This document shows positions 4,647 to 49,665 of a stretch of 64,000 nt of DNA, piece by piece. Both the position numbers and the translations under genes were made by a program. The DNA lies in the NCBI GenBank assembly GCA_019357535.2, contig CP079955.1, positions 496,001 through 560,000 on the forward strand, written 5' to 3'. Source of the stretch: Macrococcus sp. 19Msa1099 (GTDB lineage: Bacteria; Bacillota; Bacilli; Staphylococcales; Staphylococcaceae). The notes under the pieces are model-generated. The model made no database searches. It was not told where the DNA came from and saw only the letters and a list, made by a program, of their open reading frames with translations. How positions within the stretch are numbered: position 1 is the first letter of the stretch; each line of letters starts with the position of its first letter.

Positions 4647-5711
4647 TTACTTAATGATAGGGTTGAACATAATCGTATTTGCTCCTTGTTTTTTCGCAGC
4701 ATGCAACATTTCATCTGCTTCTTTAAAGATTTTACGATGTGTCTTAATTTCAGATCTTGGAATATATCCGACTCCAATTGTTACTGTAAGATGAATCGTT
4801 TCTCTATTTTGCAGGTGGAACGTAGAGTTTATTACGCCGTTTTTTATGCTTTCTGCAATCTTTACTGTATCATTTAATGACTTGTCATTAAAGATAACTG
4901 AGAATTCTTCGCCGCCATTTCTGAAGATTTTAGATTGATCAGGAACATAGTTGTTTAGAACTTGCGACATTTGTTTTAATACTGCATCTCCAGCATCATG
5001 ACCAAACTTATCATTGACCTCTTTAAAGTCATCGATATCGATAAGTAATAGTGAAAGTGACTGTTTTTGCTCAGAGGACTGGCGGCTGATGACGTTTAAA
5101 TATCTGTCAAATGCACGCACATTTCCTAAGCCGGTTAAATAATCCACGACATGTTCTTTGTTGAAGCGACTCAGCATTTTCTGTACACGCCATATATCCA
5201 CAAACATCACGCTCGAACTTAAAGATAGTATGAAACTGGAAATAATCAAAAGTATCATCTCATTAATGATAAACATCTGTTTAATCCAGGTATATACTGC
5301 GATGATTAAGATACTGATTAAATTCAGCACTTGAATAGCTTGTATGTCCTGTAATTTGATGAACGGTCCAATCATGCTCACTACAGTAGCGATGATCAGC
5401 AAATAGAGTGAAGAAGGAAATGACGTTCCTAATAGATATATATCTACTACAACAATAATGCATGCACTTAAAAATGTATAAAAAAAGTTTGTAAATCTAC
5501 CGAGAAAAAGTAGAGGAACAAAGGCAAGGTTGAACGAAATTTCTTTATAGCCAATCGGATACGTCAATAACAGTATAGCGATAGTGGTCATGAGTAGTGC
5601 GATATAAGGTTTCTTGAAGATAATTTCCCTATCTTCAAAAAACTGAATTCTATGGAATAAGTAAATACCACTGACAGTTACAGCGATATTATAGATAATT
5701 GCTTCAATCAT
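4647..5711 (-). CDS. gdpS: Membrane GGDEF-domain protein GdpS
   Basis: A 354-residue protein. Residues 1 to about 175 hold six or so hydrophobic segments (5TM-type sensor region). The GGDEF domain follows: DYLTGLGN at 190-197, LLLIDIDDFKEVND at 222-235 and the active-site signature GGEEF at 266-270. This layout matches GdpS, the conserved staphylococcal GGDEF protein. Published work on the staphylococcal homologue reports effects on biofilm genes that do not depend on cyclic di-GMP synthesis. No EAL or PilZ protein is visible in this window. It lies 14 bases after the yitT-type gene and 13 before the exporter, so it is probably part of the same transcript. Confidence 0.85.
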   Translation of the reverse strand: MIEAIIYNIAVTVSGIYLFHRIQFFEDREIIFKKPYIALLMTTIAILLLTYPIGYKEISFNLAFVPLLFLGRFTNFFYTFLSACIIVVVDIYLLGTSFPSSLYLLIIATVVSMIGPFIKLQDIQAIQVLNLISILIIAVYTWIKQMFIINEMILLIISSFILSLSSSVMFVDIWRVQKMLSRFNKEHVVDYLTGLGNVRAFDRYLNVISRQSSEQKQSLSLLLIDIDDFKEVNDKFGHDAGDAVLKQMSQVLNNYVPDQSKIFRNGGEEFSVIFNDKSLNDTVKIAESIKNGVINSTFHLQNRETIHLTVTIGVGYIPRSEIKTHRKIFKEADEMLHAAKKQGANTIMFNPIIK

Positions 5712-5725
5712 ATAAATTCCCCTTC

Positions 5726-6583
5726 CTATTTTGAACGGTATATTTTTGCAGCGCTGAACCCTCGTCCTATTATTTCAGAAGTGTTAATAAAGATTACGAA
5801 AGAATCTGGTTCTTCTTCTGTTATCAGATTTTTAAAATAAATTGCTTCTGTTTGTTCCATGACAGAAAACAATATGGTTTTACCATTGCGGTCAAAGCCA
5901 CCAAAGGCATTGACAGAGGTTACACCACGTTCAATTTTATTGTGAATAATATCTATCACTTGTGCTTCCTTTGAAGTAATGATAAAAACAAGTTTGTTGT
6001 CACCAGTTCTAAGTTGAACGATATCTATTACTTTACTTGTAACAAATATAGAAATTAATGCATATAATGCAAGTTCGAAATTAAATACGAAAGCACTGAA
6101 AATTACGACAAACGCATCGACAACGAGTTGTGCATATCCACTTGATAGACCGCTATACTTTCTGACGATCTGAGCAAGGGTCGCTGTCCCACCTGTAGAA
6201 CCGTTTCCTCTATAGACAAGTCCAAGCCCGATACCGAGCACGATACCACCATAGAGTGAAGCTAATAATGCATCTTTAGTGCCGTATTGTACAATATCTT
6301 GTGTTAAAAAAATTGTAAGTGGCACGAGGAACGTTGCAATTAAAGTCTTCAGGCTAAACGAACGGCCTAATGCAAACCAACCAATTATAAAAATAGGTAA
6401 GTTGAAGACAAACTGCACAATCGACGGGTCTAGATGGAATAGGTGATTAAGGATTGTACTTAAACCTGAAATCCCACCTGCAGCAATCTTGCCAGGTAAC
6501 AAAAATAGATTGTAGCTTATGCCTACAATAATCGACCCGATTAAAGTATAGAGAATATCCATTATTGTTCTGTTCAATTGCAT
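5726..6583 (-). CDS. YitT-family membrane protein
   Basis: A 285-residue protein with five or six membrane segments in the first two thirds (YitT_membrane domain, with KIAAGGISGLSTIL and GNGSTGGTATLAQI motifs) and a cytoplasmic C-terminal DUF2179 domain (GVTSVNAFGGFDRNGKTILF, then DSFVIFI). The biochemical function of the family is not established. The start is the ATG at 6583 with GAGAGGA upstream; an ATG 18 bases earlier lacks a site. It is first in the yitT-gdpS-thrE operon. Its leader carries a promoter with an overlapping palindrome and a terminator-like hairpin, so expression may be controlled at two steps. Confidence 0.85.
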   Translation of the reverse strand: MQLNRTIMDILYTLIGSIIVGISYNLFLLPGKIAAGGISGLSTILNHLFHLDPSIVQFVFNLPIFIIGWFALGRSFSLKTLIATFLVPLTIFLTQDIVQYGTKDALLASLYGGIVLGIGLGLVYRGNGSTGGTATLAQIVRKYSGLSSGYAQLVVDAFVVIFSAFVFNFELALYALISIFVTSKVIDIVQLRTGDNKLVFIITSKEAQVIDIIHNKIERGVTSVNAFGGFDRNGKTILFSVMEQTEAIYFKNLITEEEPDSFVIFINTSEIIGRGFSAAKIYRSK

Positions 6584-6611
6584 ATTATCCTCTCCATCCA
6601 TTAAAAAATAA

Positions 6612-6630
6612 GCAAAGCAAGATGCTTTGC
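6612..6630 (-). promoter_or_regulatory. Terminator-like hairpin in the yitT leader
   Basis: On the minus strand GCAAAGC-atctt-GCTTTGC is followed directly by TTATTTTTTAA, a compact stem plus U-rich tail. It sits between the predicted transcription start (about 6658) and the yitT start codon at 6583, so it could act as an attenuator. No alternative antiterminator pairing is obvious by eye. Confidence 0.5.
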
Positions 6631-6635
6631 GTAAA

Positions 6636-6674
6636 TAATTTCATAATTAGACCTTAACCGTCTTATTATGAAAT
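6636..6674. promoter_or_regulatory. Palindrome overlapping the yitT promoter -10 and start region
   Basis: Two 17-base arms (about 6636-6652 and 6660-6676) match as an inverted repeat with two mismatches around a seven-base centre (CTTAACC). The core arms read TTTCATAAT and ATTATGAAA with AGAC/GTCT flanking the centre. The right arm covers the predicted -10 of the minus-strand promoter, a typical place for a repressor operator. The regulator is unknown. Confidence 0.5.
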
Positions 6675-6693
6675 AAATAAAATGCATAGTCAA
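6665..6693 (-). promoter_or_regulatory. Predicted sigma-A promoter of the yitT operon
   Basis: On the minus strand TTGACT (6688-6693) and CATAAT (6665-6670) are separated by 17 bases. Confidence 0.6.
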
Positions 6694-6716: not shown

Positions 6717-6744
6717 TTGATAACATCACTAATTGTGATATTAT
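6717..6744 (+). promoter_or_regulatory. Predicted sigma-A promoter of tarO
   Basis: TTGATA (6717-6722) and TATTAT (6739-6744) are 16 bases apart, with the -10 about 30 bases before the tarO start codon. Confidence 0.5.
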
Positions 6745-6773: not shown

Positions 6774-7820
6774 ATGCTCACATTAAAACTAATCATTATA
6801 ACAGCATTATTCTCTTTCGTACTTACACCTATAATTATCAGATTTTCATACTTCATTGGTGCTGTCGATAAACCCAATTACCGTAAAGTACATACTAAAC
6901 CAGTATCGATGCTGGGTGGGGTGATAATCCTATGTGCATTTTTGTTCGGTTTATGGATTGGACAGCCAGTTGAAAAAGAAATATATCCAATTATTATCGG
7001 TGCGATACTCATACAAATAACGGGCCTTATTGATGATTTTATTGATCTTCCGGCTATAATCAAGCTCATTGCACAAATCGGGGTTGCAACAATCGTCGTC
7101 TATCACGGAATTACGTTAGACTTGATTACTTTACCATTCGGTATCGTCATTGAATTTGGAATATTTAGTATTCCAATGACAATACTATGGATTGTAGCTG
7201 TAACAAATGCAATCAATCTTGTTGATGGTCTAGATGGTCTTGCAGCAGGAGTTTCCGGTATTGCCTTAGCGACGATAGGGTTTATCGCCATCATTCAGCA
7301 GAATATATTTATCATGATGCTCTGTAGTGTACTCATCGGAGCATTACTCGGCTTCTTGAAATATAACTTTTATCCGGCACGTATCTTTCTTGGAGATAAC
7401 GGTGCGTTAATGCTAGGATTTATTATCGGTGTCCTTAGTCTTCTTGGGTTTAAGAATATCACGTTAATTTCTCTGTTCTTCCCTGTCATTATCCTTGCAG
7501 TGCCGTTTATCGATATGTCGTTTGCAATGATTCGTAGATATAGACAAGGCAAGCCGATTATGCAGGCAGATAAGTCACATCTGCATCACAAATTACTGCA
7601 GCTTGGTTATACGCATCCTCAGACAGTGATGCTCATCTATTCAATTGCAGCATTGTTTAGCGTTGCCTCAGTCATCTTATATCTATCCTCAGTGTGGGGT
7701 GCGATATTAATCGTGCTGCTGTTGATTATCACGATTGAATTAATCGTTGAATTTACTGGATTAATAGATGATACCCATCAGCCATTACTCAACTTCATGC
7801 GCAGCATTATAAAGAAATAA
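6774..7820 (+). CDS. tarO: Undecaprenyl-phosphate GlcNAc-1-phosphate transferase TarO/TagO
   Basis: A 348-residue polytopic membrane protein of the MraY/WecA/TagO family that transfers GlcNAc-1-phosphate from UDP-GlcNAc to undecaprenyl phosphate, the first step of wall teichoic acid synthesis. Visible motifs are DKPNYRKVH (32-40), the double Asp at 87-88 (LIDDFIDL), NAINLVDGLDG (145-155), FLGDNGAL (206-213) and the HLHHKLL metal-site motif near 269-275. About ten hydrophobic segments are present. The start is the ATG at 6774 with AAGAGGTG upstream. Its place next to gdpS matches the staphylococcal llm/tarO locus. Confidence 0.93.
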   Translation: MLTLKLIIITALFSFVLTPIIIRFSYFIGAVDKPNYRKVHTKPVSMLGGVIILCAFLFGLWIGQPVEKEIYPIIIGAILIQITGLIDDFIDLPAIIKLIAQIGVATIVVYHGITLDLITLPFGIVIEFGIFSIPMTILWIVAVTNAINLVDGLDGLAAGVSGIALATIGFIAIIQQNIFIMMLCSVLIGALLGFLKYNFYPARIFLGDNGALMLGFIIGVLSLLGFKNITLISLFFPVIILAVPFIDMSFAMIRRYRQGKPIMQADKSHLHHKLLQLGYTHPQTVMLIYSIAALFSVASVILYLSSVWGAILIVLLLIITIELIVEFTGLIDDTHQPLLNFMRSIIKK

Positions 7821-19787: not shown

Positions 19788-19821
19788 GTCATATGATGCA
19801 CATTAAACGAATGAAGATTTA

Positions 19822-19835
19822 CGAACAAATGTTTG
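19822..19835 (+). promoter_or_regulatory. LexA (SOS) box upstream of uvrB
   Basis: CGAACAAATGTTTG matches the Gram-positive LexA consensus CGAAC-N4-GTTCG with one change in the right half. It overlaps the predicted -35 box (TTGTAC, 19833-19838; -10 TAAAAT, 19857-19862; 18-base spacing), so LexA binding would block transcription of uvrBA. Confidence 0.9.
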
Positions 19836-19885
19836 TACCTTAAGCGTATATTTTGGTAAAATGTAAATCGATGAGGAGGGGACGT

Positions 19886-33112: not shown

Positions 33113-33142
33113 AATATACACTATAAAGTCAAAGATAGTCAA
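33113..33142 (-). promoter_or_regulatory. Predicted promoter of clpP
   Basis: On the minus strand TTGACT (33137-33142) and TATATT (33113-33118) have 18-base spacing; the -35 box is part of the CtsR operator. Confidence 0.65.
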
Positions 33143-33143
33143 A
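33127..33143 (-). promoter_or_regulatory. CtsR operator at clpP
   Basis: AGTCAAAGATAGTCAAA is a tandem heptad exactly matching the CtsR consensus (A/G)GTCAAA-NAN-(A/G)GTCAAA, lying over the clpP -35 region. Confidence 0.93.
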
Positions 33144-44988: not shown

Positions 44989-45344
44989 GGGGGCGTTACG
45001 GATTCGACAGGGGTCACTTGGGCTGGTATAGCGTGTCGGAGGGTTGTCTTCGTCATCAACACAACAGTTTATAATAACTGGCAAAACAAACAATTTCGCA
45101 GTAGCTGCCTAATCGCACTCTGCACCTCTCTCAAGCATCGCCTATGTGCCTGATGTAGAGGTTCAACTTAAGTAGGATACGCTGTACACCTCCGCTTGCG
45201 GTCTGTACAGAAGAGATTAATCGAGCTAGCTATTAACCAGGATGTCCGTTTTCAGGTTAATAGCGAAACTTAATAACAGGACTACACACGTAGAAGTATC
45301 AGCTGCAGGATCCTTGGACGCGGGTTCGACTCCCGCCGTCTCCA
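44989..45344 (+). ncRNA. ssrA: Transfer-messenger RNA (tmRNA)
   Basis: The 5' end GGGGGCG (44989-44995) pairs with CGTCTCC (45337-45343) to form the acceptor stem, and the T arm GGGTTCGACTCCC lies at 45322-45334. The 5' part (GGATTCGACAGGGG, GTGTCGGAGGGTTGTC) matches other staphylococcal tmRNAs. The tag frame reads GKTNNFAVAA from GGC 45080 to the TAA at 45110-45112; with the charged Ala the tag is AGKTNNFAVAA. The CCA end is not encoded. It rescues ribosomes on broken mRNA with SmpB. Confidence 0.97.
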
Positions 45345-45350
45345 TACATT

Positions 45351-49505: not shown

Positions 49506-49665
49506 CTCTTATCAAGAGAGGTGGAGGGATGTGCCCTTTGAAGCCCGGCAACCGTCTGAAAAGAAATGGTGCCAATTCACATAAAGTGTAAACTTTAGAA
49601 GATGAGAGAGTCGAATATATCACTATGTCGTCTTTCTTATGTATTTAAGGAAGACGACTTTTTAT
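49506..49665 (+). promoter_or_regulatory. SAM-I riboswitch (S-box) with terminator
   Basis: Conserved S-box elements appear in order: CTTATCAAGAGAGGTGGAGG (49508-49527), GAAGCCCGGCAACC (about 49540-49553), AATGGTGCCAATTC (49565-49578) and GATGAGAGAG (49601-49610). A terminator stem GTCGTCTT/AAGACGAC with T run follows at 49628-49663. S-adenosylmethionine binding should terminate transcription before metN. Confidence 0.95.

Follow-up and report, generated by a model that had tools for sequence, protein, structure and literature searches.

Palindromic operators are recognized by symmetry above chance, by conservation of that symmetry at orthologous promoters and by further copies in the genome, as well as by protein binding or a copy at the gene of the regulator itself. 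Transcription attenuators have an anti-terminator that excludes the terminator, or belong to a known riboswitch or T-box class. Vegetative promoters of the sigma-A (sigma-70) type keep their hexamers and a 17-nt spacing under constraint, intrinsic terminators keep a stem-loop and a T-tract in relatives, and proteins of the LytR-CpsA-Psr (LCP) family of glycopolymer transferases match TIGR00350 above its curated cut-off. Symmetry can also have a mutational origin, and template switching has been proposed, in at least one account, as a source of hairpins (PMC8794818).

The locus that we compare with these systems lies in a 64,000-nt stretch (the window) of Macrococcus sp. 19Msa1099 (G000 in our genome set, a 2.36-Mb Macrococcus-group genome whose nearest relative is G004). 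We consider it probable that an inherited LCP promoter now serves yitT and gdpS here, with a leftover terminator in the leader, and that the left arm of the palindrome on this promoter is young and lineage-specific. The genes and the divergent promoter are:

4647-5711, minus strand: GGDEF membrane protein gene (gdpS-like), 14 nt after yitT
5726-6601, minus strand: yitT (Pfam domains YitT_membrane and DUF2179)
6717-6744, plus strand: predicted tarO promoter, TTGATA-16-TATTAT, outside the repeat
6774-7820, plus strand: tarO/tagO-like glycosyltransferase gene (Glycos_transf_4), divergent

The names tarO and gdpS, and yitT beyond its Pfam family, are our assumptions, in part from homology, as are the labels sigma-A promoter and ribosome site. 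NCBIfam returned no match for the yitT protein and three for the tarO protein, all under cut-off. Translation of yitT likely starts at 6583 rather than 6601, with a putative ribosome site (GGAGAGG) read by eye, and the gdpS-like gene is presumably co-transcribed with it. A text search for literature on yitT with tarO and promoter together found none.

Form and spread of the inverted repeat

A repeat search of the window returned an inverted repeat at 6638-6674, in which 14 of 15 bp pair (93% complementary) across a 7-nt spacer:

6638-6652, no strand: left arm (leader half), recognizable only in G000, G004 and G006
6660-6674, no strand: right arm (promoter half), conserved

The repeat lies across the -10 and the predicted start site of a promoter, TTGACT-17-CATAAT, that reads into yitT. 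The initial annotation had described a 17-bp palindrome on the -10 and start region of a good promoter at this site. The palindrome is real, 17-bp arms pairing at 15 of 17 positions (one mismatch more than the 15-nt arms), and the promoter that was seen there is likewise predicted by us and kept in 16 of 16 genomes. The symmetry exceeds chance: the 35-nt repeat pattern, with up to 3 mismatches, matched once in the window against 0.00 expected, 60 first-order Markov copies of the whole window held a mean of 0.03 comparable repeats (largest, 1), and a comparable repeat arose in 11 of 5000 Markov copies of the intergenic stretch. Twelve further repeats in the real window reach the same threshold, eight of them with a terminator-like tail (5 or more T within 8 bases, on one or both strands), so that repeats of this kind are no rarity in real sequence.

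Genera g1, g5 and g2 contribute 16 of the 108 family genomes, one per species, and the locus was compared in every one of them. Counted at the fixed arm positions of G000, 14 (G000), 12 (G004) and 11 (G006) of the 15 pairs form. The other 13 genomes pair at 2-8 of 15 positions, where shuffles average 3.5-5.0, and we took the pairing in G027 (7 of 15, P 0.036) and G002 (8 of 15, P 0.061), the lowest P values among 13 tests, as chance. Since pairing is high only in G000, G004 and G006, which form one clade in the tarO tree (support 100/99), the palindrome is a feature of one small clade. Symmetry at orthologous promoters is therefore confined to 3 of 16 genomes, sister species only.

In the 2.36-Mb G000 genome we found no second copy of the palindrome with up to 3 mismatches, and only four of the 108 family genomes match: G000, G004 and G006 at the yitT/tarO locus and G027 elsewhere, inside a 227-codon open frame, which we judged a chance match. 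The palindrome core, allowing up to 2 mismatches, occurs at 3 sites in G000 (2 for the reversed control) and at 16 sites in nine genus genomes (11 for the control), 3 of the 16 being the yitT/tarO locus. Viral contigs gave no exact match. Hence exact and degenerate searches of G000 and of the family and genus genomes found no regulon for the palindrome; an operator with a single target would leave no further copies.

The left arm, the part that varies, is probably young and lineage-specific, to judge from its distribution, with the palindrome as a young by-product. By parsimony, three substitutions in the 37 bp are private to G000 and raised its pairing from 12 to 14, a gain with P ~0.001 under random change, at a site that had been picked for its symmetry. 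Such a gain favors either selection for symmetry or a template-switch mutation. The two helpful changes lie one in each arm, so a single template switch is not enough, and one of them introduced the same base that is carried by four genomes without the palindrome.

The conserved promoter half

The right arm belongs to a block that is shared far more widely than the palindrome:

6665-6693, minus strand: yitT-gdpS core promoter (-35 TTGACT at 6693-6688, 17-nt spacer, -10 CATAAT at 6670-6665), in 16 of 16 genomes
6654-6670, minus strand: conserved 17-mer CATAATAAGACGGTTAA, covering the -10, discriminator, predicted start and first transcribed bases

The first 11 bases of the 17-mer fall within the right arm. 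From spacing, transcription is predicted to start at 6659/6658, within the 7-nt spacer of the repeat, and the first bases of the yitT-gdpS transcript would be the GG of ACGGTTAA. TTGAC, the 17-nt spacing and CATAATARKACRGTTAA adjoin tarO in all 16 genomes, so both hexamers and their spacing are under constraint, as in a sigma-A promoter, and retention across the whole set shows that the promoter matters. Conservation continues through the nearly invariant 11 nt past the -10 (ARKACRGTTAA): mean pairwise identity over the 16 genomes is 1.00 in the -10 and 0.94 in these 11 nt, against 0.51 in the spacer, 0.37 upstream and 0.35 downstream.

Neither the 17-mer nor its 15-mer core shows any sign of a regulon in the family and genus genome searches against controls. 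With at most one mismatch, CATAATARKACGGTTAA adjoins tarO in 16 of 16 Macrococcus-group genomes and is present in 11 of the other 92 family genomes, always with one mismatch. Stray sites number 14 in the 108 genomes (one in G027), against 19 control matches, and G000 has no other site within one mismatch. For the 15-mer core, nine genus genomes yield 41 sites, including 9 at the yitT/tarO locus, against 31 control matches. The only other exact copy of this core in G000 is inside an open reading frame.

In a five-genome comparison of 29 upstream regions of the window, a list that contains this block twice (once per divergent gene), the block scored 64/68 and ranked seventh. Because six regions outscore it, the block is well conserved but not exceptional. 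Other conserved upstream blocks in the window lie at approximately 19821-19837 and 33127-33143, and resemble a LexA box and a CtsR box, respectively. The window also carries a SAM riboswitch (49506-49608, upstream of the open reading frame at 49639) and a tmRNA gene (44989-45347).

A probably lost LCP gene and a terminator-like hairpin

In some relatives the same promoter reads into a different gene. An intact LCP gene stands behind it in G008 (M. epidermidis), G001 (M. goetzii) and the more distant G015, and the order in G008 and G001 is promoter, LCP, hairpin with T-tract, yitT. The G008 protein, the one scanned, scores 136 bits against TIGR00350 (cut-off 62.3), which places it in the LCP family. 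In G015 (locus L059, 3674-4044), as read from the sequence, yitT is missing here, and LCP seems to be followed immediately by a GGDEF gene. Behind the promoter of G007 (M. bohemicum) the LCP gene is broken, and in G009 all that is left is a C-terminal scrap, in which 25 residues align (score 74, against 44 for the best of 200 shuffles). The LCP genes or remains beside tarO are:

L045, 1489-2445
L046, 1486-2443
L059, 2710-3674
L048, 1933-2407
L061

No LCP gene lies between promoter and yitT in the window genome, which has four LCP-like matches elsewhere. Among the 13 leaders without an intact LCP gene, 11, including that of G000, hold no LCP remains above shuffles; loss in those genomes therefore rests on the tarO tree, whose support is modest at two deeper forks (83/97 and 85/90). 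Because intact or broken LCP genes occur in all three genera of this tree, an ancestral LCP gene with repeated loss is the simpler history, and repeated gain the less simple one. Thus, Macrococcus-group genomes seem to have lost the LCP gene next to tarO more than once.

What remains in G000 between the promoter and yitT includes a hairpin that lies directly before the likely ribosome site:

6612-6630, minus strand: hairpin GCAAAGCATCTTGCTTTGC, then TTATTTTTTA, resembling an intrinsic terminator

It is the counterpart of the hairpin found 3' of the LCP gene in G008 and G001. By reading, 11 of 16 genomes carry the hairpin and T-tract upstream of yitT, with or without LCP. Seven of them (G000, G004, G006, G005, G002, G003 and G024) keep it with no LCP remains, and G027, G018, G012 and G021 have neither LCP nor hairpin, though the promoter is present. 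The 7-bp stem forms at 56 of 56 pair cells over 8 distinct sequences standing for the 11 genomes, with energies of -7.7 to -12.4 kcal/mol, and slid controls pair at most 57%. Covariation itself is weak, with a single compensated pair besides two wobble changes, and 98 of 500 shuffles reach as much; the case for the hairpin is therefore built on its retention and the slid controls. One leader was folded whole: over its first 100 nt the predicted transcript folds no better than shuffles (z 0.25), and we found no competing anti-terminator. A scan of the window and six relatives' loci yielded no Rfam family at gathering score at this locus. SSRC38, tsr26 and Hrs12, which surfaced at a permissive threshold, were rejected as far below gathering score (E 0.045 and worse).

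These observations suggest the following history. Opposite tarO, a sigma-A type vegetative promoter would originally have driven a divergent gene for a cell-wall transferase of the LCP family. This LCP gene was apparently deleted in the lineage of the window, and the promoter and the gene's intrinsic terminator were left in place. With both retained, yitT-gdpS transcription would start at about 6659/6658, reach the hairpin after about 30 nt and have to read through it; expression of the two genes would then be set by a well-formed promoter combined with partial termination, presumably at a lowered level. The right arm of the repeat belongs to the conserved promoter itself. The left arm would be fast-evolving leader sequence that the promoter does not need. 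Only in the common ancestor of the three sister species would it have become an inverted copy, whether by chance or through template switching in replication.

Rival readings and comparison with known systems

The initial annotation had read the palindrome as a repressor operator and named a regulon search and conservation in relatives among its checks. An operator compatible with our data would be lineage-specific: a dimeric repressor on the 37-bp repeat (about -15 to +22) would block yitT-gdpS in the M. caseolyticum clade only. The position of the repeat suits a repressor, three sister species keep 14, 12 and 11 of 15 pairs, and two of the three substitutions private to G000 raised the symmetry. 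Yet the repeat is absent from 13 of 16 genomes with the same promoter, which largely confirms the absence in relatives that had been named beforehand as evidence against an operator. Further, G000 has no second copy, degenerate copies are not clearly above control, and one of the helpful changes is a base also found in palindrome-free genomes. We regard the repressor operator as weakly supported and this lineage-specific form of it as unlikely. The suggested effect on tarO is unsupported: a separate promoter is predicted for that gene, 42 bp away from the repeat. We think it quite unlikely that the regulatory site is instead the conserved 17-mer itself, reaching from the -10 to about +5 or further (including AAGACGGTTAA), through regulator binding or sensitivity to the starting nucleotide, acting first on LCP and now on yitT-gdpS. 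The identity of the 11 nt after the -10 stands well above that of spacer and flanks, and the block ranks seventh in a list headed by the region at the SAM riboswitch; against this, the stray sites point to no regulon, six window regions score higher, and promoter strength alone could account for the conservation.

The repeat could also act as RNA, as a stem in the leader or in a small RNA. It folds as RNA at -12.5 kcal/mol, and promoter and terminator could together yield a transcript of about 50 nt. However, the first arm is untranscribed from the predicted start, Rfam gave only the weak matches described above, and the leader between promoter and hairpin is not conserved, so that we find this very improbable. 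As for a conserved small RNA, we rejected it since promoter and hairpin are the only parts of the leader that align. A more elaborate scenario, which we hold to be improbable, would have ARKACRGTTAA, present in 16 of 16 genomes, act as a start-site element regulating initiation at the site where teichoic-acid attachment by LCP is coupled with tarO. It would then have passed to yitT-gdpS after loss of LCP, with the terminator turned attenuator and a new symmetric operator forming over it in the M. caseolyticum clade. An LCP promoter inherited by yitT-gdpS, with a leftover terminator and a young left arm, remains the reading that we favor. A palindrome on a promoter can thus combine one arm of conserved promoter with one of recent sequence, and for that reason symmetry alone is no proof of an operator. 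The locus would also be a small case of promoter capture, in which a cell-wall gene is lost and its promoter and terminator stay to control a neighboring GGDEF-containing unit.

Compared with known systems, the yitT promoter resembles sigma-A (sigma-70 type) vegetative promoters in its TTGAC(T/G), 17-nt spacer and CATAAT, kept in 16 of 16 genomes, and differs in that conservation does not stop at the -10 but takes in the next 11 nt and with them the predicted start. Like the template-switch quasi-palindromes described in PMC8794818, the repeat is a short reverse-complement copy beside its source, with private changes that raise pairing; its helpful changes lie in both arms, which a single switch does not explain. 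Relatives carry an LCP glycopolymer transferase gene beside tarO behind this promoter, whereas the window genome has none at this place and four matches elsewhere. Finally, a hairpin and T-tract between promoter and ribosome site recall a leader terminator or transcription attenuator. The yitT leader departs from that type in that we found no anti-terminator or Rfam family for it and in that its hairpin seems to have served formerly as the terminator of a gene since deleted.
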